Shown here: positions 20,697-36,617 of the stretch, piece by piece
How positions within the stretch are numbered: the first letter of the stretch is position 1
Layout: every line of letters begins with the position of its first letter
DNA from: Pseudomonadota bacterium
GTDB taxonomy: Bacteria > Pseudomonadota > Gammaproteobacteria > Steroidobacterales > Steroidobacteraceae
Reading direction: 5' to 3'
Assembly (NCBI GenBank): GCA_018241505.1
Contig: JAFEDS010000033.1
Span: 1 to 64,000, forward strand
Length of the DNA: 64,000 nt
Translations under genes and position numbers: made by a program
Notes under the pieces: generated by a model
What the model was told of the DNA's origin: nothing
Databases searched by the model: none
Seen by the model: only the letters and a program-made list of their open reading frames with translations

Positions 20697-21394
20697 TGAT
20701 CAACAAGCCAGTTCCAGCAGGACGTGCAGTCTTCTTCGACGTAGATGGCGTCCTGCTGGACTCCCTGTCACAACACCTCGACTTCTGCTCCATCAAGGCC
20801 ACCGAATACCGCCTCAACTTACCAATCCCCTCGCCGCAAGAATTTCGGCGCAGGGTGGCACTAGGCACCCAAGTCGGCCCAATGGCCAAATTCTTCCTGG
20901 CAGTGGGTTTCCCTTCCGACTACATCGAACGCGCGGTACCGGAGTACGAAAGTGAGTTTTCCCAGCGCTTCAAACCAAAGCAATTTCCCGGCGTGCCCGA
21001 TCTTCTCAACTCTCTAACAACCGCCGGCCTGCATCTCGGCATAGTGACATCAAATGTAAGGAAGAATGTAGAGACCGCCCTCCACAATGTTCTGCCTCTA
21101 TTCGACCCAAACTGCCTGTTCTTTTTCGATCGAGCGGCCTCGAGAAACAGCAAGCACCAGTGCCTGTCTGAAGGCGCAACCGTGCTCGGTCTTTCCCCCA
21201 ATCAATGCATTTACGTCGGTGACCAACCAACCGATGCCGCTGCCGCCCAGGCCGCCGCCGTACGGTTTCTCGGCGTTACCTACGGCTGGTCAGCGCATTT
21301 CCCAGATAGCTCAACTGAAGTTGCTGAGACTGTTCCGGACATAGGAAAACGGCTGCTCGCACTTCAAAGATCAACCGCGTCCCTGCGAGACTAA
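20693..21394 (+). CDS. HAD-superfamily phosphatase, phosphoglycolate-phosphatase-like
   Basis: This 233-residue hydrolase should remove phosphate from a small metabolite in the cytoplasm. All four HAD motifs are visible: DVDGV with nucleophile Asp16 and acid Asp18, motif II Thr119-Ser120, motif III Lys154 and motif IV GDQPTD at 176-181. A C1-type helical cap lies between motifs I and II. The substrate cannot be told from sequence. It is fourth in a chain of overlapping ORFs on the plus strand and converges on the minus-strand gene at 21371, with a 24-bp overlap of coding ends. Confidence 0.8.
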   Translation: MMINKPVPAGRAVFFDVDGVLLDSLSQHLDFCSIKATEYRLNLPIPSPQEFRRRVALGTQVGPMAKFFLAVGFPSDYIERAVPEYESEFSQRFKPKQFPGVPDLLNSLTTAGLHLGIVTSNVRKNVETALHNVLPLFDPNCLFFFDRAASRNSKHQCLSEGATVLGLSPNQCIYVGDQPTDAAAAQAAAVRFLGVTYGWSAHFPDSSTEVAETVPDIGKRLLALQRSTASLRD

Positions 21395-21919
21395 CCGATA
21401 CATCTCCACCAGCCAGGGCCAAGCGGAATAACATCCTCCGAGGATACTCGTCCATAAATAGAGCCCGAATATTTTCGGAACCACCACCCTGTAATGGCGG
21501 CTTGCGGGCCCTTTGTCCTTCGCAGCCCTGGTAACAGTCCATTCGTGAATTCCGTCGTCCTTCATGAGGCCCTCCACCTTCATCAGGAGCTCGGAGTCAC
21601 AATCAACGAGATCCATATTGCGTAAGTCGAGCGTTTTGAAAAAATGGGTCAAAAACCCCCCAGCAACCGCCAGCCCGACGCCAAGAAGCGCTCGGTCACC
21701 CGGAGTGATATCGGACGACGTTGCGATGTGAGCAAAACCCGTAATCACCACGGCAATCGCCAGAAAATAATAGTTCACAGAGGCAATCCGCTGCCCGGCG
21801 TGATAAATAAACAGGCCTCTCGCGTGCTCCAGAGCCCATTTCAGGCGTTCGTCATCCGTGGCGCCGCTGCTGCCGGCTCCTGAAGAAGAATCGGCAGGTT
21901 CTTTGCTCTCATCCATCAC
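21371..21919 (-). CDS. Three-helix membrane protein downstream of the STAND ATPase
   Basis: The 182-residue protein has a Ser/Gly-rich acidic N-terminus and a conserved-looking helix ERLKWALEHARGLFIYHAGQR. Membrane segments lie at about 48-66 (NYYFLAIAVVITGFAHI), 78-95 (LLGVGLAVAGGFLTHFF) and near the C-terminus (FGLYLWTSILGGCYSAWPW). The shape resembles the SLATT-type membrane proteins found beside NTPases in conflict systems, but I do not see a diagnostic motif. It starts 78 nt after the STAND gene stop on the same strand, so a functional pair is likely. Confidence 0.6.
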   Translation of the reverse strand: MMDESKEPADSSSGAGSSGATDDERLKWALEHARGLFIYHAGQRIASVNYYFLAIAVVITGFAHIATSSDITPGDRALLGVGLAVAGGFLTHFFKTLDLRNMDLVDCDSELLMKVEGLMKDDGIHEWTVTRAAKDKGPASRHYRVVVPKIFGLYLWTSILGGCYSAWPWLVEMYRLVSQGRG

Positions 21920-21997: not shown

Positions 21998-24900
21998 TCA
22001 ATGCGTAATGCGACCAAACAGAGTCAGGTTGCGCCAGTTAGGGCTCGACTTTGCGGTTCGGACATTTCCCTTAGTGAGAGCGCCACATCTATTTTCTGGA
22101 AAGAAGCCTAACAAAGGGGCCGCGATACCTCTTCGCCAGTCGAGAATCTCTCCTTCGGCAGTCCAAATCAGCATTCGGTCGCACTTCGGGTCATAGGAGG
22201 ACCAGATCATGTTACTCCCCAGGTCTCCCAGAGGGCCCAACTTTTGCCCGTCCAGTGACCAACCGAAGAGCTGCCCGCCGCGCCGCCGTCCGATGACTGC
22301 CTTCTGATTGTGACTGAAGTTGAATGAGGTAAATCCTGAACCTTTAAACTGCAGAACCAGGTCTGCCGTCCGGGACGAAGTAGTTATCCGCCAAAGCTCA
22401 CCTCGACCTTCCTTGGTTGTACGTAGCAGATGGTCCCCCTGCTCGTTGATGATCACCCGATCAGTCGAAGCCAATCCGAGTCCGGCAACTTTGAAAAATG
22501 CGTCCCGGTTCGGTAGCCATATGCCGGCATCGCTTCCTCCTTCGAGCGTCCAAACGAATGCGCCGTCGACTCTGGGTGCAACGTTCTGCGCCGTAATCGG
22601 ATCTGAAAACTTTCCGGCCACCGGGTCAATGGGCCAAATCACCGTTTTCGTCGGCTCGTCTTGCCGAAGAAGAAAGTGATTGGGTGTCAACAACATTTGC
22701 ACCAGGCCCGGCTGGAGGGTCAGTGTCTTGGGCCAATCGGCCACTTTGTCGGGACAGGCGCCTGCATATTTAATCGACTCTACAGATGCGGAGATCGTAT
22801 GCAGTTGCTGTTGCGATGGAGAATAGAGCGCCGCATACACCATGCCGTTTAGCTCCAGTACTCCAATCAGTACCACCGATCCTTCAGTGCTGAAATCGCA
22901 GAGCAGGTTCTGCATGTCTGCGCGCCAAAGCGTGATACGCGCGTGTCCGTCCGGGCTTCGCGCCAGCCACCCTTTGCTGCCGGCGGTGAAAAACATGCTA
23001 TCTTGCACGGGAGCGTGCGATCCGGAGCCGGTCGCCGGGCTTCCGCTCGGAGCGATGCTCTGCCGCGTAATCTCACGATAGGAGTCAGTGGCCGGAAAGA
23101 AAATCCCCATACACGATGTTGATGACTCCTGGCATTGGAAGTCCTCGAAAACAACCCCGCCGCTGGGATCCGGCGGCTGCAATAGCGATATTGAGAAGCC
23201 TGGACCTGGCCTCGCGGCAACCGGGATGATGTGGCTCCAGTCGGCAGTCTTTCCTCCTGCCATGCGCTTCAACTCTCCGTTCCCGGGCTTATAGGACCAA
23301 AGATAGAACCTGGCGCTTGGAGCAGGCGACCACAATGACGTGAGATAATTCGATACGATGCTCGATTCACTGCCACTGTATTCGCCTATTTCCTGCCCAC
23401 TCTCAGCATCCCAAACACTAACTGCGCGATTTTCCGGATGATTGTAGTCGCCTTCACTCGCAACAATGATTCGAGAACCTGAGTCGCTTGCCATGCCCCA
23501 TGCTGAAAGTCCGGCTTCGGACGGGTTGGTATCCCCTCCAACAATGGAAGCGTTGCCCATCGAGCGCCAAACATGCCACTCTGTCCCGAGCATGAGTACT
23601 GAAACGATCGCAAGTGCGCCTACGAGAACGTTCAAGCCAATCGGTTTTCCATACCCAATGACTATGCTCCTGAATAGGAGTTTCCGCGTGTCTGCCGCTT
23701 CCAACACATGCTTTGGTGCGCCGCGCTTGATATCACGCAATCTGGCAAGAGGAATGACGGTCTTTTTATTGACGACCATCTTCGCTAGATAGAAGTCGAG
23801 CTCAGCCATGGAGCTTTCACGTCGCGTCTCTGCGTCTTCGGTAGCGAGCTTTATTGGTTCAACGAAGTAGTCGTGGATGAGAGACCACCTCGGCAGCTCA
23901 GCCGTACCAAGTCGGACTAGAATATAGGCGTCTGCCAGATTGGTTAGGATGGCCTGAACCGCTTCGCTTGTCGCTGCTTTCCCGGCGCCTGCCGCAACGC
24001 GTTCGACGAGTTCGTTCAAGGTGAGCGGGTCGCGGGATTTCTTGTTGTTGGGAATGTCGCAAAGCTGCCTCAATATGGAGCGTGTCAACTCTGGAGGACC
24101 TGCCAGTGCCATGGTCTCCGTCAGAAAAGCGGCGCGCAGGCCGGTCGCGCGGCCGCGCTCCCGGTAGCGATCGATGGTCATCTGCCGACGCAGCGAATCG
24201 CAGACAATCTGCAGATCAGGTGGCCTGACTTCTCCATTGGTAGCTAAATCCTCGGCGATCTCATCACAAAGCACCTTGCTGCACGCAATCCCGTCCCGCA
24301 GAGCACACTCTTCGATGACCGCAGCGGCTTCGGTGGCGTCGAAGTTTCGAACATTGAATATATCCTCGGCCAGTGTGATTCGAAGGTTCAAAGCTCGCGC
24401 TACATCCTGCAAGTCCGACAGATACTCCTTGCGTATGCCGATCACTATTTTCCAGTCGGAGGCCAATGCAGTCGCGATTGCGTCGCCCATCGAACGTCGG
24501 CTGTCGGAGTCTGTGAGTTGTAGGAGTGCCTCTTCGAATTGGTCCAGGATCAACAGCGTTCCAACATCTTCATCTTTACTTTCGCGCTGTACTCCTTGTA
24601 TGACGAGTTGCCAAATTTGTTCTGCCGCTTTTCCGGCGCTCCGCCTGGAAAGTCGCATGGTGCTGCGTTCGTAAATCGAATACCTGTCTACCCGCGCCAC
24701 GGCAAATCCCGCGGCTCTCATGGGTTCGGTCAATGCACAGTCGATGAGAGAGCTCTTACCGGCCCCGCTATCTCCGGTAACAACGCAGATTCTGAAATTG
24801 GCGGACTTGACCTTGTTCAACAAGGCACCTGCCAGAACGCGACGCGACTTACCCGGTAATGTCTCGCCCGTGTGAAAGCGCTTGAGCCCTCGAAATGCGG

Positions 24901-25210
24901 CGCCTTCCTGGGATTGCGAACCCGCAGAGGGGGTTGTTTTTGAGGCGCTCGAGCGTTTGAAGGTTACGAGCGCCGCAATAGTCAAAAGTAGCCCGGTGAT
25001 AGTTGCCGCAAGGTATTTGGCCCAAAGGGGCGGGACTTGAAGAGTTGCCGCGGCGCTCAGTACGCTGGCAAAGACGAGCCCAACAATGGATTGTGTTTCT
25101 TGCAGGGTGTTCTTGATTTTGTTCAAGTCCAGGGAGTCAAACATCGTTTTCGACGGCGAAGCTGGTGTTACGCGTGCAGGTTCTTCTGGTGTTGGGGTGG
25201 GGGAATTCAT
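21998..25210 (-). CDS. Membrane-bound STAND ATPase with C-terminal propeller-like region
   Basis: This 1070-residue signal-transduction ATPase has two membrane helices at about 43-59 and 66-83. A P-loop NTPase follows with Walker A GDSGAGKSS (146-154) and Walker B LLILDQFEE (219-227), in the style of the nSTAND1 group. A helical winged-type region follows, then a third membrane segment near 560-580 (LNVLVGALAIVSVLMLG). The last 450 residues are beta-rich with WD40-like blades (AVSVWDAESGQEIGEY, LWRADMQNLLCDF), which probably sense a ligand. ATG 25210 after CCAGGAA was preferred over one 75 nt upstream. Such proteins often act in defence or programmed death. That role is inferred. Confidence 0.75.
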   Translation of the reverse strand: MNSPTPTPEEPARVTPASPSKTMFDSLDLNKIKNTLQETQSIVGLVFASVLSAAATLQVPPLWAKYLAATITGLLLTIAALVTFKRSSASKTTPSAGSQSQEGAAFRGLKRFHTGETLPGKSRRVLAGALLNKVKSANFRICVVTGDSGAGKSSLIDCALTEPMRAAGFAVARVDRYSIYERSTMRLSRRSAGKAAEQIWQLVIQGVQRESKDEDVGTLLILDQFEEALLQLTDSDSRRSMGDAIATALASDWKIVIGIRKEYLSDLQDVARALNLRITLAEDIFNVRNFDATEAAAVIEECALRDGIACSKVLCDEIAEDLATNGEVRPPDLQIVCDSLRRQMTIDRYRERGRATGLRAAFLTETMALAGPPELTRSILRQLCDIPNNKKSRDPLTLNELVERVAAGAGKAATSEAVQAILTNLADAYILVRLGTAELPRWSLIHDYFVEPIKLATEDAETRRESSMAELDFYLAKMVVNKKTVIPLARLRDIKRGAPKHVLEAADTRKLLFRSIVIGYGKPIGLNVLVGALAIVSVLMLGTEWHVWRSMGNASIVGGDTNPSEAGLSAWGMASDSGSRIIVASEGDYNHPENRAVSVWDAESGQEIGEYSGSESSIVSNYLTSLWSPAPSARFYLWSYKPGNGELKRMAGGKTADWSHIIPVAARPGPGFSISLLQPPDPSGGVVFEDFQCQESSTSCMGIFFPATDSYREITRQSIAPSGSPATGSGSHAPVQDSMFFTAGSKGWLARSPDGHARITLWRADMQNLLCDFSTEGSVVLIGVLELNGMVYAALYSPSQQQLHTISASVESIKYAGACPDKVADWPKTLTLQPGLVQMLLTPNHFLLRQDEPTKTVIWPIDPVAGKFSDPITAQNVAPRVDGAFVWTLEGGSDAGIWLPNRDAFFKVAGLGLASTDRVIINEQGDHLLRTTKEGRGELWRITTSSRTADLVLQFKGSGFTSFNFSHNQKAVIGRRRGGQLFGWSLDGQKLGPLGDLGSNMIWSSYDPKCDRMLIWTAEGEILDWRRGIAAPLLGFFPENRCGALTKGNVRTAKSSPNWRNLTLFGRITH

Positions 25211-25297
25211 GTGAACATTCCTGGTGGCGAATTCCTGAAGGAAATGAACAGGCCTCATGCATGCCCGAAGTTTCAGGCGTTGCATAGGAGTGCTACA

Positions 25298-25890: not shown

Positions 25891-27303
25891 CTACAGAGAA
25901 AGCCGATATGCATACGGTGACGCCCAATCCCGTTCAAACACCCCCTGCAGCTCCCTCACCAACCTGGGATGATCGCTGTTGAAGCTACACCCCGCCGTAG
26001 CAGCAAAATAATCCCAAGTCATATTGGAGGTCCCCACGTTGACCCGCCGATCGGTCACTATGTACTTCGTATGATTGACCCGGCTGTGCCCCGGAAACCT
26101 TCGATTCACGCCCGTAGTGTCATCCCACCCCGGCACAATGAACTGCTTGATCTCCAACTGCCCCGCGCTCATGAAGCGATCCTGCCGCCCCGCATCCGCC
26201 GCCTGCTGCAAGGCAACCAACAACGGCGCAATGAGCGCCGAGCTATGCGCCCACCTGCTGACCAGCACCCGCACATACACCTTCCGCGTGAGCACCGCTG
26301 ACAGAATTGCATCAATGAGATCAGGCCACCACACCGGCGTGTCAGTCGGAATCCTCTCTCCACCCTCGAGCGGCGAAACACCGCTCCCCGCTCGACTGAA
26401 AAGCCCAACAGGCGCGAAGTCCATCACGCTGATGCAGACAGAGCGACGTGCATCGTGGATCGTATGAACGAGTCCACTGCCATCGTAACTCCGCCCCGGA
26501 CCCAGCACCTCCGCAGGGCAGCCGGTCAGGAATATCCCGCCGCTCTCCCCGTTGAGGCTGACCTCCAGGGGCGCGCCGATATTGTGACTCGTGCCGTATT
26601 CAATCGCGTCAAGAGGCGAGGGCGCCCGCTTTCCTTCAGGAACCAGTGTTGACCAGTTAGGCACAGTCCTGGTTACACGCGCTGAAGGATCAAACACTTC
26701 GATGCCGCTGGGCGTCAGGCCACTGAACCGGCACCATCCCTCGAAATACCTGGCAGCGTCTTGTGCCACCTCCGGGCAATTCTCGACCGCAACGCCCAGC
26801 TCCTTCACCTGTGTAATCGACTTCCAGTCCATGTTCACGGACCCGAGATAGATGTGCAGGCCGTCAAAAATCCACAGCTTCTGGTGCATGATTCCAGAGC
26901 CGCCGTACCAGCTTCCCATGACCACTTCGAACACTGTGACCGCTTCCGGATATGCCTCCCGCAAAGTGGTCGATTCCGGCTTCGAGCTGCTGGAAAAACC
27001 GGGGCTCTCCAGAATGCGTATGCGCACACCACGCGCTGCAGCCTCACGTAAGGCATCGAACAATGCGCGTCCGGCACCAGCGCCCATCTTGACGAACTGC
27101 TCATCCTTGAATCCGGACTCATCAACACTCTGCGGATCTGGCAACAACGCCCAGTACATGGCGGTAAGGTCGATGCTGGTCCGCGCCCGCCGCGTGAGTG
27201 CTACGAGCACATCTTCCGTATAACGGACACCCGGTGTGCCCCTCAGGTCTTCGAGCCCCTTGGGAATTGATTCGACCAGGTACGCACGGGCCTCGTTTTC
27301 CAT
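25891..27303 (-). CDS. PLD3/PLD4-like phospholipase D-superfamily phosphodiesterase
   Basis: This 470-residue protein has two HKD half-sites: His140-Lys142-Asp147 in HQKLWIFDGLHIYLGS and His411-Lys413-Asp418 in HTKYIVTDRRVNVGTSN. Spacing and flanking sequence (YLGSVNMDWKS, VNVGTSNMTWDYF) resemble the PLD3/PLD4 branch, whose animal members are 5' exonucleases, so the substrate may be nucleic acid and not lipid. No signal peptide is visible. ATG 27303 lies 5 nt after the stop of the MBL gene; a longer frame extends upstream but overlaps that gene. It is last of three genes in the minus-strand operon. Confidence 0.8.
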   Translation of the reverse strand: MENEARAYLVESIPKGLEDLRGTPGVRYTEDVLVALTRRARTSIDLTAMYWALLPDPQSVDESGFKDEQFVKMGAGAGRALFDALREAAARGVRIRILESPGFSSSSKPESTTLREAYPEAVTVFEVVMGSWYGGSGIMHQKLWIFDGLHIYLGSVNMDWKSITQVKELGVAVENCPEVAQDAARYFEGWCRFSGLTPSGIEVFDPSARVTRTVPNWSTLVPEGKRAPSPLDAIEYGTSHNIGAPLEVSLNGESGGIFLTGCPAEVLGPGRSYDGSGLVHTIHDARRSVCISVMDFAPVGLFSRAGSGVSPLEGGERIPTDTPVWWPDLIDAILSAVLTRKVYVRVLVSRWAHSSALIAPLLVALQQAADAGRQDRFMSAGQLEIKQFIVPGWDDTTGVNRRFPGHSRVNHTKYIVTDRRVNVGTSNMTWDYFAATAGCSFNSDHPRLVRELQGVFERDWASPYAYRLSL

Positions 27304-27307
27304 GAGG

Positions 27308-28732
27308 TCATTCCGGGAAAACGTAATCGATGTAGATCTCGCCCTGCGAAAAATTCGCCGGTAGGCTGTCCAATTCCTGATGCGCTTCGGGGCTTGCCCG
27401 CGCGCTACCCGCCGCAATCCAGTCGCTGCGGACCAACTTCCCATTGAGTTGCTTCTCGAGTGCGTCCATGAGCTTGGTGCGCGGCACTTCCGTTCCCTTG
27501 GCGATGCTTCCGTAAGTTCGCTTCGCACTCGGAAAGCCCGTCTCGGTCGAACACATCGCCGCGCAGCGCGGGTTCAGCGCCTGCGCCGCAGGTATGGGCG
27601 TGGCATTCGTGCTGCCGTGGTGACCCACCTTGTAGAAGTCGATTGAGCCCAGGATGTTCTTAGCGGGCGCGGTAATGCCCGGGGCCTGTCCCATAACCGG
27701 CTTGCCGTACAGCCAGTACTCCCAGTTTCCCCACTGGGCGTCGCCGACAAACAGAAGCTTCTTGCCCCGACAGGTAAACAGCAACACGAGGCTTTGATTG
27801 TTCAGCGTGCCATCGAGTGCGTCCGCAGTGGCCGCCAGCGCATTGGGTTGCACTTCATGCAGCCGTGCTTCGAATTCCCGTGCAGTGCCGCGCTGGTGGT
27901 GTTTTATCTGCTCAGCGGTCTGATAGGGGTAAAAGACCTCCTTTGGATAGTCGCTGGCGCTTCCCATCCATTTTCCGAACGGGTTCAAATCATTCGCCAC
28001 CGTGGGGTCTTCCTCGGAGGCAGCGGCCAGATATTGCTCCGTCCGGTTGTCGCTGGCCGAATAGGCGCCTTTCGCTGATTTGGGAGGCGGCCCCAACACC
28101 TTCACCGTCAAGACATCTTTCAGAGAGTCGGGCAAGGTCGGATTGTCATCCGCCTCATAGTAGTAAACAGGCGGTTTGTTCTTGAAGCCCTCTGTCAGGA
28201 GTTGCAACGCCTTGGCGTTGCCGCCTCCATTGAGGCCGAGTGCGTTGTGCACCTTGTCGAGCGCCTGTTGCCCTTCGTGGTCGTCGTCCGCGCTCTCCTT
28301 CAGTTGCAGCGACAGCCGGTTCGCCAATGAAGTCACTTGCTGCCGGAATTTGACTGTGCTGCTGTCCTTCGGGTCCAACCGGTTGGTTATCCAAACAGCA
28401 CCGACCTCGCACTTCGCGAAGTCGGCATAGTGAGAGGCGAAGCCGGACAAATGGTCTGCGTGATAATGGGTCGCGACCACGAGCGCAAACTTTCCGCCGG
28501 TGGTGCTCATCAGGTCCTTCACACAGTCATCCATGCTCCCGATATTCCCGGCATGCACGCCGCAGTCGATGAGAATGTGTTGCGGGCCTGCAGGGGAGGG
28601 CACCGTCAGCAAGAAGAAATCCCCGAATCCCACTCGATACATGCGCACCCGGAGGGAATTCCCGCCCGGATTCTTGCGCCCGGAGCCTGCGGGGGTCTTT
28701 GCGGGAGCTCGTTTCTTTTTCGCGCTACTCAT
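27308..28732 (-). CDS. ComEC/Rec2-type MBL-fold metallohydrolase
   Basis: The 474-residue protein has a metallo-beta-lactamase fold. The zinc motif THYHADH lies at 88-94, with LIDCGVHAG before it and LLFVGDAQWGNW and KVGHHGSTN in the C-terminal half. This matches soluble relatives of the ComEC beta-lactamase domain, often nucleases or phosphodiesterases. The first 25 residues are unusually basic (SSAKKKRAPAKTPAGSGRK), look disordered and are not a signal peptide. It overlaps the metallopeptidase stop by 4 nt and precedes the PLD gene by 4 nt, so three enzymes are produced together. The substrate is unknown. Confidence 0.75.
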   Translation of the reverse strand: MSSAKKKRAPAKTPAGSGRKNPGGNSLRVRMYRVGFGDFFLLTVPSPAGPQHILIDCGVHAGNIGSMDDCVKDLMSTTGGKFALVVATHYHADHLSGFASHYADFAKCEVGAVWITNRLDPKDSSTVKFRQQVTSLANRLSLQLKESADDDHEGQQALDKVHNALGLNGGGNAKALQLLTEGFKNKPPVYYYEADDNPTLPDSLKDVLTVKVLGPPPKSAKGAYSASDNRTEQYLAAASEEDPTVANDLNPFGKWMGSASDYPKEVFYPYQTAEQIKHHQRGTAREFEARLHEVQPNALAATADALDGTLNNQSLVLLFTCRGKKLLFVGDAQWGNWEYWLYGKPVMGQAPGITAPAKNILGSIDFYKVGHHGSTNATPIPAAQALNPRCAAMCSTETGFPSAKRTYGSIAKGTEVPRTKLMDALEKQLNGKLVRSDWIAAGSARASPEAHQELDSLPANFSQGEIYIDYVFPE

Positions 28733-30708
28733 GAAGAGATCCCCATGTGCAGAAGACCGAAGTCCGCCTGGAAATGCTTCGCATCGTCGGTCTTGCCGTT
28801 GCCCAGCCCCCTGGCCGCGTAATATTCACGTTGCCGCGCCTCACGCTGCTTCCCCGATTCCCCGGTCAGCGGCTTCCTGATCGCGAACCGCACATGAGGT
28901 TCACTGGCATTGCCGAATTTCACCTTGGGTGACGAGATGATGAGGGTTACCCCGCCTCTGAAGGGAAAGGTTCCCAGCTCCGGCAAGTCCGGATCGAAGG
29001 GCACGAGCTTGGTTTGTACGAGCTCGACCACCATGTCGATGCGTAACCTTCCGTCTGCCCCGGTTCGAAATACCGTATGGAAGGACGGCGAGTAGGGCTT
29101 GGCATGCTCCGGCAACCCCCGATCACCATCAAAACCCAACCTTGCCGCGTTGGCGTCTGCGTACTGCCGCAACACATCGCCGTTGATTTTGCTCTGTTCC
29201 AGCGTCGACCCGTTTGGATCGGCAAACACCAGCCCCGGCACCGGGGGCAGTGCGTCGGGGTCCGGAGGCCTGGGAAGGTGTGGCCAACACAGAGCATCCC
29301 TGGAGAAGTAACTGGCGCCCTCCGGAAAAATCCCACGCACTCGAAATGCCTGCATCAGGGCATCACAGAATCCCTCATCGTCCCGCGGCATCAGATCCGC
29401 CACCACGGTAATCAGTGCGCGCAGATAGTCGCCAAAGGTGAGATCGACGGGCGGGCAATAGTCCACCGCGCGGGCACAGATCCGGAAGAACTCCGCCGCG
29501 GTCCTGGAAGCGGCCTCGGCAACCGACCGGGCTAACGGCCCCGGGAGCTCATCTGCGTTCGGATTGCCCCCGCCGGCGCGATAGATGCGGAACAGATCGG
29601 AGGTCCGTTGCACGTAGATGGTGAAGTACGCATCGAACACCGCGGACACCAGGATGGACCCTCGAAAATGCACGTCATTCACGCGCGTGTTGATGTCGTG
29701 AGGATTGGCCGGATGGTCCAGGGCGGATCGAAGTCCCCGATTGATACCCGTCGCTTCGCCAAATTGCTGGGCAAGATCAATCAGGGGATTGCGCTTCCTG
29801 ACTTCACCCGCCAGCACGGCATCGCTATCCCGATCGCGTTTGCTGTCGGCCGCGCCCCCCGAGAGCGGTGCAGCCATGTCGGGCTTCAACTCGAACTGGT
29901 AAAGACGGCCGCCGGTCTTTTGAATGGTGTCCAGCAGCACTTCCGGATGGGAGAAATGGCTGAAGAGTGCGGACAGATCGGCAAACGCTTCATGGAAGGC
30001 CAGCACGTCGGGATTCGTGGGCTCCGTAAAGAAGGCGCGGATGCCATCGATGACTGCGTGCGTGACTTCGTGTGCGATGATGTCATGGGACAGACAAGTA
30101 AACACACACTGTCCCGGCAGATTTCGCCCCTGGTTGTTTTTGTTGGCGGCAAAATAACCAAACAGGATGCCTTTCGCCTCCGAGCTGTAGAAGGCGTTCG
30201 CCTGGACCATGGCATGGGGGAACAGGTTCAGGATCCAGATGTCATCGCCTTTTTTCCAGGTGTCGGCTTCATCCGGGCCCCCGCCCCGAAAGCGATCCGC
30301 CCGATGCCAATGGATCGAGCGCCCGAGGGCCTGCTCGAATCGCTCAATGGTCTCCATGGCGACCGCGTAAACCATCTGCTGGTGAAACTGCGGGTTGGAT
30401 TCTGAGGGGTCGAGACCGCCACGAGCGAGGACGCGATAGTCGTTGAGATCCACCGGCGGGTAGTAGCGCTGCTTGGCGCCATCGTAGTCAATGACCGCGA
30501 TTTTGCTTCCGCAGGGTCCGGGCTTCAGGTCATCATCCCAGGCCACCTCAATGTTCATGATGTTGCCGATGTAGTTTCCGGCGCTCGGATCCAACGCATA
30601 GGCTTTCAACGACCTTATGCGCGGTTTCGGAAGTTTCATCGCAGTTGTGGCGGCTCGTGACGCCGGACGCTTCTTCGTCTTGGTGTTCTTTGGATCGTCC
30701 TTGCCCAT
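28729..30708 (-). CDS. Thermolysin-like (gluzincin) zinc metallopeptidase
   Basis: The 659-residue protein contains HEVTH at 213-217 and HEAFAD at 239-244, where Glu240 is the third zinc ligand. This is the gluzincin arrangement of M4-like peptidases. Substrate-side features such as FAANKNNQG and NDVHFRGSILVSAVFDAY follow. There is no secretion signal or pro-domain. Instead the N-terminus is Lys/Arg-rich (KDDPKNTKTKKRPASRAA). ATG 30708 was chosen after AAGGCGGT; a longer frame upstream looks non-coding. It is first in the minus-strand operon with the MBL and PLD genes and divergent from the cytochrome operon. Its target is unknown. Confidence 0.78.
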   Translation of the reverse strand: MGKDDPKNTKTKKRPASRAATTAMKLPKPRIRSLKAYALDPSAGNYIGNIMNIEVAWDDDLKPGPCGSKIAVIDYDGAKQRYYPPVDLNDYRVLARGGLDPSESNPQFHQQMVYAVAMETIERFEQALGRSIHWHRADRFRGGGPDEADTWKKGDDIWILNLFPHAMVQANAFYSSEAKGILFGYFAANKNNQGRNLPGQCVFTCLSHDIIAHEVTHAVIDGIRAFFTEPTNPDVLAFHEAFADLSALFSHFSHPEVLLDTIQKTGGRLYQFELKPDMAAPLSGGAADSKRDRDSDAVLAGEVRKRNPLIDLAQQFGEATGINRGLRSALDHPANPHDINTRVNDVHFRGSILVSAVFDAYFTIYVQRTSDLFRIYRAGGGNPNADELPGPLARSVAEAASRTAAEFFRICARAVDYCPPVDLTFGDYLRALITVVADLMPRDDEGFCDALMQAFRVRGIFPEGASYFSRDALCWPHLPRPPDPDALPPVPGLVFADPNGSTLEQSKINGDVLRQYADANAARLGFDGDRGLPEHAKPYSPSFHTVFRTGADGRLRIDMVVELVQTKLVPFDPDLPELGTFPFRGGVTLIISSPKVKFGNASEPHVRFAIRKPLTGESGKQREARQREYYAARGLGNGKTDDAKHFQADFGLLHMGISS

Positions 30709-31097
30709 GCGACCGCCTTCGTGAGTTGGAGAGATGCCGACTCCACTTTCAGTGGCAGGATTCGAGTGATTATGAAACCCACTATAGCGCGGCGATTTTT
30801 CGCTTCGCAATCTCGATAATGCGCCCATCGCTTTTATCGATTTGCGTCCGACGTGTTGCATCGCGCCACCGACCGAGCCGCATGTAACAACCAACTCGTT
30901 AGGAGCCGATAACAACACCGGCACAAAAATTTATGGCCGCGGCGATTGCCAAGCCGTAATTTACCGGCGCATACTGATTGTTAGAAGAAGAGCGGTGATT
31001 CGCTGCACCACGAGACGGCGAACACGAGGAATGTGAGGCGGGGGGTAATCATCAGGAAGAGCAGCCGCAATCCACGCTGAGACTCGAGGTGACGATC
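30709..31097. promoter_or_regulatory. Divergent promoter region between the two enzyme operons
   Basis: About 390 bp separate the metallopeptidase and cytochrome starts. It must drive both operons. No confident -35/-10 pair, operator palindrome or ORF was recognised. GAGGTGA precedes the cytochrome ATG. Confidence 0.4.
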
Positions 31098-32714
31098 ATG
31101 GGCCATGGCCGGTCATTCGTCGCAGTGCTCGCATCTGCGATCGTCTTGATTTCGTTGACAACATTCCCGACTCCGTCGTCGTCCCAACCGGCAGCGTCTG
31201 GGACGACAGCGGCGCCTGCGGCAACTGCGCCGGGCTTGAAGTGCACGCCCGCCGCGGTGCGCAGTAGCCCCCCCAACCCCGATCCTCTGCAAGGCCAGAA
31301 GGATCCGTTCGTGGGAAGCCTGGTTGGCGCAACCCTTCCTCCCGGAATCCTTCCCATCAGCGACGCCACCCGGCAATCCATCATTGGCGTAGGTATGCCG
31401 TGTCAGGAGCAGGTGAGCCCGGGCGGACAGGAAAAGGTCGGGCTCGACAACCTGCAACGCGGTTTCGATTTCTATTCCTGGCGCACCTTCATTGCCATGA
31501 ACTCACCTGCCGACGGCACCTCCATTGTGCAGTCGCAACCTGACACGCCGACCCGCTGGGAAGACATGGACAGCTTCAAGCAATTGCTGGATGTCATGCT
31601 GCCAGCCAGCCAGGCGCCCCCCAAATGGCCGGCGGACCGGGCCGGCATGGAGGCGGAGCGTGAGCGCCTGGTGCCGCAGGAATGCCGCGATCTGCACAAG
31701 GCGCAGCCTCACAGCATGATTGTGAAAATGATTGAGGAAAGCTTCAACGAGCCCTTCAAGACCGGGCCGTTGATTGACCAGCAAGGTCACTACGCCATCT
31801 TCGATATCCTGATGAACCGGCAGATGTTCAACTACATCCTGTTGAATCATCTGAATACCAAGGCCGGGCAGGCGGCCAATGCCACTCTCGCGGTGGATTT
31901 TCCGGCCGGTCAGAATGCGACCAGCGAGCTCGGTGCCTTCATGCTGAAGGTATCCTGGCGGATCCTCTCGGACAGTGAGATCCAGGCCAAGGACTTCCAC
32001 ATGGTGAAGGCTCTCGTTCTGACCCCGCCCAGCCCGAAGGGGCGGCAATGTCTGTCCGAAACCTTAGGGCTCGTTGGGTTTCACGCCGTACATAAAACGG
32101 CCAGTCGCCCACAGTGGATCTGGACGTCCTTCGAGCATGTCAGGAACGTGCCGGCCCGGGACGAGGTCACCGCCCATAAGCTCCTCGCTTCCTACAATTT
32201 CTTCAGTGCCAACTGCAAGGGCGCTTGTACCGAGAACGCCACGCCACCCACCCCCTGGGATCCCGATCCGGCCCTGAAATTGAAGTTCCGCGCCGACGAC
32301 TCGTTCAAGAGCCAGATTGTCCGCGAAACCCCGCTGACCAATGCGGCGAAGAACATGAACACCGTCTTTCACAGCATGTTGTCCAACACCGTCTGGAAGA
32401 ACTACATGCTGCTCAGCACACAGTGGCCCAGCGAGTTCAGTTGCACCAAGTTGCAGTCGACCAGTGCCGCTGCCCCGAGCCCGAAGACTGATTTTATGAA
32501 ACAACCCGATATGACCTGCTCGCCGGCGCCGACCTACCTGGCGAATTCCACGCTCGAGACCTATAGCCAGGGAGACATTCCGCTCGCCTCGTCGAGTTGC
32601 ATTGCCTGTCACAGCAATGCCGTGGGCTTTCAACGCAGCGCCTCGAATCCACAGCCGGGCCGGCCGAACCTGAACCAGTCCGATTTCACGTTCATGCTGG
32701 AGAAAGCACAGTAG
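31098..32714 (+). CDS. Exported c-type cytochrome subunit of the GMC dehydrogenase operon
   Basis: The 538-residue periplasmic protein has a signal peptide (SFVAVLASAIVLISLTTFPTPSSS) and a single heme c site CIACH at 501-505, near the C-terminus. The large middle part has no family I can name. It includes FDFYSWRTFIAMN and a likely interaction region. In fructose, sorbitol and gluconate dehydrogenases the electron-accepting subunit carries three hemes, so a single-heme partner is unusual. It is first of four plus-strand genes with spacing under 15 nt. ATG 31098 fits GAGGTGA better than the in-frame GTG nine nt upstream. Confidence 0.7.
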   Translation: MGHGRSFVAVLASAIVLISLTTFPTPSSSQPAASGTTAAPAATAPGLKCTPAAVRSSPPNPDPLQGQKDPFVGSLVGATLPPGILPISDATRQSIIGVGMPCQEQVSPGGQEKVGLDNLQRGFDFYSWRTFIAMNSPADGTSIVQSQPDTPTRWEDMDSFKQLLDVMLPASQAPPKWPADRAGMEAERERLVPQECRDLHKAQPHSMIVKMIEESFNEPFKTGPLIDQQGHYAIFDILMNRQMFNYILLNHLNTKAGQAANATLAVDFPAGQNATSELGAFMLKVSWRILSDSEIQAKDFHMVKALVLTPPSPKGRQCLSETLGLVGFHAVHKTASRPQWIWTSFEHVRNVPARDEVTAHKLLASYNFFSANCKGACTENATPPTPWDPDPALKLKFRADDSFKSQIVRETPLTNAAKNMNTVFHSMLSNTVWKNYMLLSTQWPSEFSCTKLQSTSAAAPSPKTDFMKQPDMTCSPAPTYLANSTLETYSQGDIPLASSSCIACHSNAVGFQRSASNPQPGRPNLNQSDFTFMLEKAQ

Positions 32715-32724
32715 GGGAAATTCG

Positions 32725-33429
32725 ATGGATCGACCTCGCGAACGCAATCCGCGCGCCACTCAGCCTCTCAACCCGCCACCAACCCTATCGCGTCGTGCCG
32801 TGGTCGCCGGAACGGTGGCAACGACGGCAGTGGCGGCAGTCCTGCCTCTTTCCAACTCCGCCCAGGCGCAGGCGCCTGACCCGCAATCGTCGCAGGACAT
32901 GATGGCCTTCCTGTTGCTTTCAGAAGCACTGACAGGAGTGGACAAGCAGATTCTGGCCCCCGAATTCTCAAAGGGCACGGGCGACATCCTGGACGCCGAT
33001 CCGGGCATCGACCCGATCAATGTCAAGAGCACCTATTTCAAATGGCTGGCTGCACACGCGGCGCCCGCCTCGTTTGCCAAGGTGTTGCAGATTGCGAAGG
33101 ACAACCGCACGGCTCCTGACAAGATCATCGCCGCAGTCACCGCTGGCGACGACGACACAAAGTTCCTCGGCCGCAGCATTGTCCTGCTGTGGTATCTCGG
33201 CTCGTGGTATGACCCGGCCGATCTGAAGAGATTTGCCACCGCACCGGCGCCGGTCCCCGGACCGATCCCGTCGCAAGTTGTTTCGGCCAAAGCCTACACA
33301 CAGGGATTGGCCTGGCAGGTCGTGGGCGCGCACCCGATGGGCTATAGCAATCTGCAGTTTGGGTATTGGTCGCGTGAGCCGAGCGACCCGAATGATCCGA
33401 ACGACCCCTTCCGCCCCAAGCAGTCCTGA
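32725..33429 (+). CDS. Tat-exported small subunit of a membrane-type sugar/alcohol dehydrogenase
   Basis: The 234 residues carry a Tat signal (LSRRAVVAGTVATTAVAAVL, from about 21) typical of the gamma subunit of fructose, sorbitol and gluconate dehydrogenases. The mature part is helical and ends in AYTQGLAWQVVGAHPMGYSN, a conserved-looking feature of these subunits, followed by an acidic DPNDPNDP tail. Such subunits fold with the FAD protein and ride it through the Tat system, since the flavoprotein lacks its own signal. It lies 10 nt after the cytochrome and 12 nt before the GMC gene. Confidence 0.75.
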   Translation: MDRPRERNPRATQPLNPPPTLSRRAVVAGTVATTAVAAVLPLSNSAQAQAPDPQSSQDMMAFLLLSEALTGVDKQILAPEFSKGTGDILDADPGIDPINVKSTYFKWLAAHAAPASFAKVLQIAKDNRTAPDKIIAAVTAGDDDTKFLGRSIVLLWYLGSWYDPADLKRFATAPAPVPGPIPSQVVSAKAYTQGLAWQVVGAHPMGYSNLQFGYWSREPSDPNDPNDPFRPKQS

Positions 33430-33441
33430 GGGAGCCGGTGT

Positions 33442-35346
33442 ATGACTGACACTTCCATCCGGTGCGACGTGGCAATCGTCGGCTCCGGATTCGCGGGATC
33501 GTTCATTGCCAATGAATTGAGCAAGCAGGGCGTCAAAGTCGTCATTCTCGAGGCCGGCCCGGGCGTTCAACCGAATTTCAACGCCTTCATGAAGACCTTC
33601 TATGAGGCCAATGCCAAGGTTCCGGAAAGCCCTTATCCACCCGCGGTTCTCGCCCGGGGCAAGTTGATTGACCCGAAGAATGTGGCCGCGGGCAGGCCAT
33701 CGGCCCTGACCACCGGCGGCCATAGTTGGAAGGATCCGAGCCAGGCCTATCTGGATCAGAGCACGAGCCCGCGTCCGTTCAAAAGCACGTACGAGCGCCT
33801 TGCCGGCGGTACCTCCCACTGGATGGGGCTCACGCCGCGAATGGTCCCGAACGACTTTCGCATGAAAACCGCCTACGGCAAGGGGCAGGCCAACTTTCCG
33901 TTGCCCGACTGGCCGATCGACTACCAAACCATCGAGCCTTTCTACGAAAGGGCGGAAGCGGAGCTTGGTGTGGCTGCCGATGTTGCTGAGCAGCACTTTG
34001 CGAATATGACTTTCTCCGCCGGCTATGCGTACCCCATGCCGAAGATGCCACCGTCGTTGTTTGATCAACGCGTGGCTGCGGCGGTTGCGCATTTGACGGA
34101 CGATCAGACGCGATTTCTCGGTATGGGCGCTCCCATAACGGGTCTGAAGGTGGTCAGCCAACCGGCGGCTCGCAATTCCCAACCGTATCGCAATCGTCGC
34201 GCCTGCGCCGGCAATACCAACTGCATTCCCATCTGCCCCATCCAGGCCAAATACGACCCCACGATTACCCTGAATGAGGCGACCAACAACGGCACGCGCC
34301 TGATCGACCACGCCGTCGCCAATGAAATCCTGCTGCAGAACGATCGCGTCAGCGGCATCAATTTCATCACTTACGGTCACGAGGGCGGGCCGAAGACCGG
34401 CAGCGGTCGCCTCGAAGCCACTGTGTATGTCATCGCCGCCAACGGCATCGAAACGCCGCGGCTGCTGCTCATGTCAAAGAATGGCGGGCGCACACCCAAC
34501 GGCGTAGCCAACAGCAGCGACATGGTCGGCCGCAACCTCATGGACCATCCCCAATACCTGGCGTGGGGACTTCTGCCCAAGCCCGTATTTCCCTACCGCG
34601 GTCCCCTCGTGACCTCGTCCATAGGCGAGATCTGCGACGGTCCCTTCCGCTCCCAGCGCGCCGCCTTTCGGGTCAGCTTGGGCAATGAAGGCTGGAATTC
34701 CCTGGTCGGCAGCGGTCAATTCGGCCCGGATCCGCACGTCACCACGCTCGATCTGGTCAATGGCATGAACTGCAGTGGTCTCAACGGACCGTCGGGCAAG
34801 AGCCGTGCGCTGTTCGGTAACGATCTCAAAGGCACCCTGAACAATCTGGTCACCCGGCAATTCAGGATTGCATTCCCGGTCGAGCAGAGCCCGGATCCCA
34901 ACAATCGAGTGACTCTGTCAACTTCCGTGGACGCATTGAACCTGCCTCGCCCAAAGATCAACTACGACATTTCCGAGTACACCCGCAGAGGGGTGGCCAT
35001 CGCCTTTCAAATGAAGAACCTGATTTTCAAACAGCTTCAGGCAGTTGACTTCACGGCGCGCGCTCCCGGTGATCCCGCGGGTTTTGACGAGACGATTGAG
35101 GGTAAACAGGTCCAACTGACTTATGGTGGCGCCGGTCACGTCATGGGCACGTATCGCATGGGCCTCGATTCGAAGACATCCGTCGTCGATGCCTGGCAGC
35201 GCTCGCATGATCACCCCAACCTGTACCTGGTCGGAAGCGGAACATTTCCGACAGTAGGTACCTCGAATCCAACCCTCACGTTAACAGCCCTGGCCCTGCG
35301 GACGGTGCAGGACATCGTCCTGAAGCTCCGGGTGGTCAAATCATGA
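33442..35346 (+). CDS. GMC-family FAD-dependent dehydrogenase, large subunit
   Basis: This 634-residue flavoprotein oxidises an alcohol or sugar and passes electrons to the cytochrome. An FAD-binding GSGFAGS lies at 14-20 with ILEAGP after it. The region near 255-265 has three Cys (CAGNTNC and IPIC), as in the Fe-S-bearing subunits of gluconate and fructose dehydrogenases. The C-terminal GMC signature is present (GHVMGTYRMG near 565, then NLYLVGSGTFPTVGTSNPT). No signal peptide, consistent with export with the Tat subunit. Its stop overlaps the DNase II start by 4 nt, tying an oxidoreductase to a nuclease in one operon. Confidence 0.85.
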   Translation: MTDTSIRCDVAIVGSGFAGSFIANELSKQGVKVVILEAGPGVQPNFNAFMKTFYEANAKVPESPYPPAVLARGKLIDPKNVAAGRPSALTTGGHSWKDPSQAYLDQSTSPRPFKSTYERLAGGTSHWMGLTPRMVPNDFRMKTAYGKGQANFPLPDWPIDYQTIEPFYERAEAELGVAADVAEQHFANMTFSAGYAYPMPKMPPSLFDQRVAAAVAHLTDDQTRFLGMGAPITGLKVVSQPAARNSQPYRNRRACAGNTNCIPICPIQAKYDPTITLNEATNNGTRLIDHAVANEILLQNDRVSGINFITYGHEGGPKTGSGRLEATVYVIAANGIETPRLLLMSKNGGRTPNGVANSSDMVGRNLMDHPQYLAWGLLPKPVFPYRGPLVTSSIGEICDGPFRSQRAAFRVSLGNEGWNSLVGSGQFGPDPHVTTLDLVNGMNCSGLNGPSGKSRALFGNDLKGTLNNLVTRQFRIAFPVEQSPDPNNRVTLSTSVDALNLPRPKINYDISEYTRRGVAIAFQMKNLIFKQLQAVDFTARAPGDPAGFDETIEGKQVQLTYGGAGHVMGTYRMGLDSKTSVVDAWQRSHDHPNLYLVGSGTFPTVGTSNPTLTLTALALRTVQDIVLKLRVVKS

Positions 35347-36617
35347 CAGTCTCCGCGCTCGACGAACGAGGCCAGCCGGTCGATTGGTTCTTCATCTACA
35401 AAGTCCCGCAACTCGCGGCGGGTGCCAACACCGATATGACCACGGGCTACGAGTACGTTTACTACGACTCGCGCATTGATGAGCAGAAAACGGCGAACAA
35501 ACGCAATATTGACAAGTCACCTTTCGTATTGAACAGCGAGCAGGGCGCGCTCAATGAGACGCTCAATGCAGTGTTTGACAATCCAGAGGACACGACGGGT
35601 TGGATTCTCTATAACGACGAGAAGCCGGGAGATGTCACTGGCAAGGACAACGGCGCTCTTGGCCATACCAAGGGCGTGCTGGCCTTCGATACGAAGACCA
35701 AGACCGGCTATTGGCTGCTGCATTCCTGGCCGAAATTTGCGGAGCCGAAAGCCAAAGGCGATCCGACACCCAAGTTTGGGCAGACCTATCTGTGTCTGTC
35801 CCTGACGTTCGACACCTTGGAGAAGATTGCCGCGCAGATGATCGACCGCCAACAGCCCCAGACCTATCTCAATCGAGTCGATTGCCTCGCCAACAACAAG
35901 GCCAGTCCTCTCTACAAGCTCTCGCAGACCATCAATCCGAATGCCGTCGGCGCTTCCGGCACGCTTGACCTGAAGACCGCGGGCGGAATGGCATTCAAGG
36001 TGATTGCCAAGAACCGTTTGTGGAACCAGGACTTCTGGAACGGACTCGTAGGTCCCACTCTCGGTGACGACATGGACGTCGACACCTGGATACGAGGCGC
36101 GGTACCGCCGGTGGCCGACACCGACGGTGTCCACAAGACCTTCGACATCAAGTACATCAACCTGGGCCCCCTGGGCATCCACATGGCGTGGCCCGAAACA
36201 CACGACCACGCGAAGTGGGGTATCACCACCCATTCGAACTGGATCTGCGTCGGGGACATCAATCGCATGATTTCGCAGCGCAAGCGCGGCGGCGGCACCA
36301 TTGCATTTCAAAACCAAACGCTGTGGCAGGGCCTGTCAAAAACCGACCTCCTGCTGGCGCCCCCAGGCCTGACGCGCGACAACGCCCGCGGTCTCATCCA
36401 CTCCACCCACTTCGACCCGCACGACCAACTCGGCTCCTCCCCGCAACCCAAGATCCACTCGATGTCACACCTGCCCCCGCGCACCGGCGTGCCTTTCCGC
36501 GGCAAACCCATGCCGCTCGACCCGGACCCAGCTCAGCCGACCCGGCCACTGAGCCCGCGTGCTAATCGTTCGCGCCCGAAGAAGAGCGCCAAAAAGAGCT
36601 CGACCAGGAAAAAGTAG
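35343..36617 (+). CDS. Deoxyribonuclease II homologue
   Basis: The 424-residue protein matches DNase II. DWFFIYK lies near the N-terminus. A first HxK site sits in GHTKGVLAFD (His108, Lys110), followed by GYWLLHSWPKF. A second HxK site sits in THDHAKWGI (His289, Lys291), with the family tail WICVGDINRMISQRKRGGG. DNase II makes metal-independent cuts in DNA through these histidines and is mainly known from animals, with scattered bacterial copies. No signal peptide is visible. The C-terminus is a Pro/Lys/Arg tail ending KKSAKKSSTRKK. The ATG overlaps the GMC stop. Export, if any, is unexplained. Confidence 0.85.
   Translation: MTVSALDERGQPVDWFFIYKVPQLAAGANTDMTTGYEYVYYDSRIDEQKTANKRNIDKSPFVLNSEQGALNETLNAVFDNPEDTTGWILYNDEKPGDVTGKDNGALGHTKGVLAFDTKTKTGYWLLHSWPKFAEPKAKGDPTPKFGQTYLCLSLTFDTLEKIAAQMIDRQQPQTYLNRVDCLANNKASPLYKLSQTINPNAVGASGTLDLKTAGGMAFKVIAKNRLWNQDFWNGLVGPTLGDDMDVDTWIRGAVPPVADTDGVHKTFDIKYINLGPLGIHMAWPETHDHAKWGITTHSNWICVGDINRMISQRKRGGGTIAFQNQTLWQGLSKTDLLLAPPGLTRDNARGLIHSTHFDPHDQLGSSPQPKIHSMSHLPPRTGVPFRGKPMPLDPDPAQPTRPLSPRANRSRPKKSAKKSSTRKK

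Follow-up and report, generated by a model that had tools for sequence, protein, structure and literature searches.

Why does a gene for DNase II, a family that includes the lysosomal nuclease of animals, close a dehydrogenase operon in a gammaproteobacterium? The pairing lies in a 64,000-nucleotide stretch of a Steroidobacteraceae genome (positions 1 to 64,000 of contig JAFEDS010000033.1, assembly GCA_018241505.1; hereafter the window), where four genes are read in the same direction from position 31089, DNase II being the last. A sequence-only reading of this DNA had seen here a redox complex co-translated with a nuclease, possibly a system for attacking or scavenging DNA outside the cell. 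That interpretation is partly supported: the identity of the DNase II and its last-gene position hold, the system and the export find no support. As the best overall explanation, we propose that a leaderless, Burkholderia-type DNase II has been joined to a GMC operon as accessory cargo of a conflict-type island, an account in which we place nearly as much belief as doubt. The four genes are as follows.

31089..32714, + strand: protein with one CxxCH motif (CIACH from residue 504) and a hydrophobic N-terminus, its homologues named 'cytochrome C' or hypothetical
32725..33429, + strand: FAD-SLDH-type small subunit (PF12318); leader twin-arginine-like (SRRAVVAG)
33442..35346, + strand: large subunit of a GMC flavin adenine dinucleotide (FAD) dehydrogenase (PF05199, PF00732)
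35343..36617, + strand: DNase II (PF03265), 424 residues, leaderless, with two HxK motifs and a Lys/Arg-rich C-terminal tail

The last of these open reading frames (ORFs) almost certainly encodes a DNase II. PF03265 is its sole Pfam family (E = 2e-75; 254 bits against a cut-off of 23), the match spanning residues 6-333 of the protein and profile positions 3-318 of 326, and a phmmer search of PDB sequences retrieves 5i3e and 5unb, both 'Putative deoxyribonuclease-2' of Burkholderia thailandensis, at E = 4.5e-135 over residues 1-357. The two HxK sites picked out by the sequence-only reading are in place (HTK at 108-110 in GHTKG, HAK at 289-291 in DHAKW), and the nine aligned DNase II rows, that of the window included, all have H108, K110, H289 and K291. 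As a member of this family, the protein would be a metal-independent acid endonuclease of the phospholipase D (PLD) superfamily that leaves 3' phosphate ends and uses both HxK histidines. A model built from seven sequences (mean pLDDT, the predicted local distance difference test score, 57, which is low) has as its only PDB matches at E<=0.001 three 5i3e/5unb chains, B. thailandensis entries 55-57% identical to the window protein; this adds little, because sequence similarity alone already gives the same answer. Compared at the protein level with the B. thailandensis enzyme, the window DNase II shares the long match and both motifs but carries about 67 extra C-terminal residues ending in the Lys/Arg-rich tail, and its gene closes a GMC operon. 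A Lys-rich C-terminal tail is also present on the DNase II of locus L004 (9956-11203).

The existence of the B. thailandensis crystal structure removes the surprise that the sequence-only reading had attached to a DNase II in a bacterium. Bacterial DNase II is rare and of an already known kind; PMC11430429 cites the B. thailandensis structure paper together with a 2008 DNase II phylogeny, and the reference list of PMC4148230, on Trichinella DNase II, includes a 2003 paper on the enzymes of T. spiralis and B. pseudomallei. PF03265 matches were found in 2 of 60 relatives (the window genome included) and in 1 of 349, 2 of 247, 1 of 194 and 2 of 148 genomes in four further samples, in each of which one match is the centre genome, picked because DNase II is present. 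With the window and centre genomes set aside, three matches are left in 993 genome searches, among which a genome is possibly counted twice. A search with the window DNase II itself retrieved 1 of 398 genomes of its phylum, namely the window genome. Its relatives come from metagenome-assembled genomes (MAGs) of Pedosphaera (69% identity), Melioribacter (67%), Acidobacteriota (63%) and Burkholderiales (55%), and from Undibacterium (59%), B. pyrrocinia (58%) and Desulfobulbus (43%); no DNase II was found in the phage records or viral contigs searched. So sparse a distribution across several phyla suggests lateral transfer, although MAG binning calls for the usual caution.

The start of the DNase II gene is tightly bound to the GMC gene. 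Its ATG is the first ATG, GTG or TTG of the frame, none occurring in the 44 sense codons back to the prior in-frame stop, and it overlaps the GMC stop codon by four bases (35343-35346), the overlap being one that the sequence-only reading had noted. Bacterial genes are very commonly coupled by overlaps of 4 bases, and such an overlap, taken alone, says little on function. The sequence-only reading had itself made conserved neighbours the test of the pairing, and we examined ten other DNase II loci: six from a genome scan (L002-L007; the scan used exact 8-residue patterns and detects close relatives only), one on a B. pyrrocinia plasmid (L010) and three from sampled genomes (L041, L043, L048). 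In tblastn searches at E<=1e-3 that used the cytochrome-like protein, small subunit and GMC protein of the window (hereafter the trio), which detect relatives of the window GMC rather than every GMC protein, trio relatives were present in none of the ten. Upstream of DNase II, one of these loci (L005) extends for 32 bases only and each of the others for about 5.5 kb or more; downstream flanks range from about 1.8 kb (L002) up to 12 kb. GMC relatives do occur in three of the five DNase II genomes searched whole (best 35% identity, E=6.8e-26), and in the two whose DNase II contig is known, G458 and G459, they lie on other contigs.

The search in the opposite direction gives the same picture. The trio was found in three further places, in Bradyrhizobium quebecense (L018), Azospirillum ramasamyi (L019) and genome G1240 (L039), and DNase II is absent from all three stretches. 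Among plasmid records, DNase II occurs in one and GMC relatives in 571; 19 plasmid records have the cytochrome-like protein, and of five examined two have the trio. Genome G1190 gave a weak match to the cytochrome-like protein. The partners of DNase II differ from locus to locus. On the B. pyrrocinia plasmid (L010, 8791-24454) they are a tyrosinase, a nucleoside-phosphorylase superfamily (PNP) domain protein and a metallophosphoesterase, these two downstream of DNase II, a ferritin-like protein and three RebB R-body genes, and in G1582 (L048, 9147-12539) DNase II is overlapped over 8 bases by a glutathione synthetase gene and followed by a gene of the glutamate-cysteine ligase family. Tight coupling of DNase II is therefore not special to GMC. 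The GMC-DNase II adjacency is a single case, seen at no other locus examined, and the pairing is in all likelihood accidental or very local; the redox complex and nuclease proposed as one system thus lose the support of conserved neighbours. No paper in the literature library searched mentions both 'GMC oxidoreductase' and 'DNase II', and none mentions 'nSTAND1' together with 'GMC oxidoreductase'. The appealing idea that DNase II belongs to a redox complex, which lacks support, is thereby removed. In its place stands a DNase II lineage that occurs sparsely in several phyla of bacteria, with partners that differ.

Nor does the protein look exported. The window DNase II begins directly at its domain with no hydrophobic leader, the best 12-residue Kyte-Doolittle mean within its first 45 residues being 0.92, against 0.26-0.63 in eight homologous rows and 2.6-2.8 in two other bacterial DNase II proteins, one of them from the same genus, that have clear leaders. 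Four of the eight homologous rows (L003, L006, L007 and L048) have no upstream in-frame start; for L002 and L004 a longer start is possible, though without gain of a hydrophobic leader, the contig edge truncates L005, and L010 has three possible upstream starts, the annotated one being used here. The window protein shares PF03265 and two HxK motifs with animal lysosomal DNase II, yet with neither a leader nor an upstream ATG, GTG or TTG it lacks the secretory signal peptide typical of the animal enzymes, which, as PMC9208542 reports, was predicted in every DNase2 and DNase2b sequence studied there. In PMC4148230, the B. pseudomallei enzyme is likewise listed among those without a predicted signal peptide. 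Given the missing leader, the window DNase II probably stays in the cytoplasm. An extracellular role, which the sequence-only reading raised as a possibility and which the protein's N-terminus does not support, would need lysis or carriage by a partner.

The neighbours of DNase II are the genes of a dehydrogenase, as the sequence-only reading had recognized. A GMC subunit, a small subunit with a leader like those of twin-arginine translocation (Tat) and a CxxCH subunit lie in one operon, which corresponds to the three-subunit make-up of GMC dehydrogenases. This composition is the one known from membrane-linked dehydrogenases of sugars or alcohols. In the small subunit a pair of arginines, in what we take to be a twin-arginine motif (SRRAVVAG), stands ahead of a hydrophobic stretch, and among solved structures the GMC protein is closest to FAD glucose dehydrogenase (6a2u) and fructose dehydrogenase (7w2j). 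With those complexes the window operon shares a homologous GMC subunit, a small subunit of the FAD-SLDH family and a CxxCH protein; it differs in the CxxCH protein itself, which has no Pfam family match and, in a PDB search, no solved relative at E below 0.5. To judge from the CxxCH motif, this protein may bind haem c. Its distant homologues (L020, L021, L022) stand beside SagB/TOMM genes, near a molybdopterin enzyme and PLD/DUF2278 genes, or near a tyrosinase.

Head-to-head with the dehydrogenase-DNase II operon lies a second operon, comprising genes for an M4-like peptidase, a metallo-β-lactamase (MBL)-fold protein and a PLD-superfamily protein, with an NTPase gene beyond them.

28729..30924, - strand: M4-like metallopeptidase with HEVTH and HEAFAD motifs; true start probably near 30708 (MGKDDPKN)
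27308..28732, - strand: MBL-fold hydrolase similar to the PADLOC models LmuA, RTasMBL and Avs1a; its start overlaps the M4 stop
25891..27528, - strand: PLD-superfamily protein with two HxKx4D motifs; true start probably near 27303
21998..25285, - strand: nSTAND1 NTPase (PF20703), on the same strand as the PLD gene and about 600 bp past it; candidate member of the module

The nSTAND1 gene has a lower GC content at third codon positions (GC3, 0.60) than the genes of both operons, and it is followed by an ORF (21371-21919) with no Pfam match. We do not claim an assignment to AVAST through nSTAND1, the PADLOC matches being weak (Avs4 6e-4, mad3 3e-3). Genes of both operons also occur together at the closest trio found, on a Bradyrhizobium plasmid typed as conjugative (L018), where the cytochrome-like, small subunit and GMC genes are followed on one strand by PLD, M4 and MBL genes; identities to the window proteins are 67, 63, 66, 68, 54 and 57%, respectively. 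The association of the trio with M4, MBL and PLD genes thus holds in two of the four trio loci known here, and the Bradyrhizobium locus is without DNase II. The PLD gene that follows GMC in Bradyrhizobium was considered as a replacement for DNase II and rejected, since the window has its own orthologue (68%) in the other arm.

The M4-MBL pair itself is widespread on plasmids. An M4 protein occurs in all 34 plasmid records with the MBL, the best places lying within 3 kb of each other in 31; two of the remaining three have adjacent M4-MBL pairs elsewhere in the record (two each, L054 and L055), and the hit coordinates of the third, NZ_CP013572.1, are identical to those of the R. phaseoli record. 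The comparison took the 34 MBL records and 37 of 58 M4 records, the 21 omitted covering at most 23% of the query, and many of the 34 are near-duplicates and so not 34 independent cases. Third partners of the pair vary (patatin, DUF2235, a fused S8 domain, an AAA ATPase, PLD), and CBASS, SIR2, TIR, DarT or AbiEii genes stand near 4 of the 10 annotated M4-MBL loci examined. The HExTH motif with an HE motif 21 residues on, as in M4-like zincins, is kept in all eight M4 proteins, which have no Pfam match besides fused S8 domains (two of eight) and one weak BcsR match, and in the four scanned no PADLOC match. Among the eight M4-paired MBLs, LmuA and RTasMBL match all and Avs1a matches four; for the window MBL, only the LmuA match is long, that to Avs1a covering 68 of 392 profile positions. 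A long and variable stretch of 235-284 residues separates the first zinc motif from the DAQ motif in these MBLs, and a single-sequence model of the window MBL (pLDDT 33) is too poor to show any cover of the active site. A PDB profile search gave nothing for M4 and weak partial matches for MBL; the viral contigs held nothing for the window M4 or cytochrome-like protein in direct searches, and profile scans of them returned two weak loci each for MBL and M4.

These features recall a principle described in 2025. PMC12799240 shows that in Hachiman, AVAST and Canu systems the MBL nucleases are made as pro-enzymes, which trypsin- or caspase-like partners open by cleavage; according to the same paper the MBL-protease pair occurs in Lamassu and DRT systems as well, and homologues are reported beside proteases of other families. 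The words metalloprotease, metallopeptidase and thermolysin are absent from its main text, and it was the only relevant paper found in a literature search aimed at an M4/MBL defence pair. As in the pairs of Hachiman HamM, AVAST Avs1a and CanC, an MBL gene stands beside a protease gene in the window, where, in contrast, the protease is M4-like and neither trypsin- nor caspase-like. By this analogy, the M4-MBL pair is a natural candidate for a further class of protease-activated MBL nuclease. We suggest, tentatively and with the doubts in the majority, that the DNase II operon lies on an immune module not described before. In it, an M4-like metalloprotease would be paired with a gated MBL pro-nuclease and with a third, exchangeable component of lipase, PLD or serine-protease type (patatin, DUF2235, S8 fusion, PLD); here the module would have gathered an exported dehydrogenase and a cytoplasmic acid DNase and so stacked several DNA- and membrane-attacking enzymes at one site.

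Under the explanation that we prefer, DNase II would be accessory cargo of a mobile island of conflict type, anti-phage or similar, to judge from its context only. It would add an effector that destroys DNA, silent at neutral pH and called into action when the cell fails or acidifies. A defence-related role for DNase II is possible but doubtful, and several observations weigh against it or against the island account as a whole. Six of the 10 annotated M4-MBL loci are without such named defence genes, one lying among oxidase and Calvin-cycle genes. The PADLOC likeness of the MBL is not specific to M4 partners, because a control MBL from a Hymenobacter plasmid, which has no M4 partner, matches LmuA (7e-9) and RTasMBL (3e-4) as well, while a second control protein, perhaps an MBL, gave no match; on the strength of this one informative control protein, the likelihoods of the defence role and of the immune module were both lowered slightly. 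The window DNase II, cytochrome-like protein, small subunit and M4 protein are without PADLOC matches, and those of GMC are only weak (E 0.002-0.004). The DNase II and cytochrome-like genes agree in GC3 (0.767 and 0.766), and base composition therefore gives no sign that DNase II was inserted recently. Beside no other M4-MBL pair examined was a DNase II found, and the link between DNase II and the island thus rests on one locus. Finally, a leader-bearing DNase II in a genome of the same genus (L041, 9051-12740) stands beside a same-strand Tle1-like (PF09994) gene and an opposite-strand S1/P1 nuclease gene, a setting that speaks for digestion, at least in that branch.

The strongest of the rival explanations makes DNase II a self-standing acid nuclease for nutrition or housekeeping, set free on lysis or active inside the cell on salvaged DNA, with its operon position due to chance. 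The thin scatter with differing neighbours, the PNP-domain protein and metallophosphoesterase downstream of the B. pyrrocinia gene and the same-genus enzyme near S1/P1 nuclease all speak for this, but the window protein has no leader and salvage-like neighbours are not common to the loci, and we regard it as unlikely, though to be taken seriously. Considerably less probable is the idea of the sequence-only reading put in mechanistic terms, a DNase II within an exported redox complex, which would fold in the cytoplasm, be carried with the Tat small subunit as the GMC protein probably is, and attack or scavenge DNA outside. Related dehydrogenases export the GMC subunit together with the small subunit, and both the gene overlap and the twin arginines before the hydrophobic stretch fit such carriage; the mutual absence of trio and DNase II from each other's loci elsewhere stands against it. 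Least probable by far is that an assembly or binning error placed the gene. The genome is in 46 contigs, has an estimated contamination of 5.67% and is larger than all 36 genus members listed, but the junction is a clean 4-base overlap within one contig, and the GC and GC3 of DNase II agree with those of neighbouring genes.

In our view, the M4-MBL pair deserves more attention than DNase II: if the peptidase-MBL module is immune, the principle of the protease-activated nuclease extends to a further class of protease. The window genome has a second M4-like gene (L040, 10458-18088), 38% identical to the first and about 2.7 kb from a patatin-domain gene, with no MBL match nearby. Lys-rich N-terminal tails occur on the window MBL and M4 proteins and also on the MBL of the Bradyrhizobium plasmid (19768-21330).

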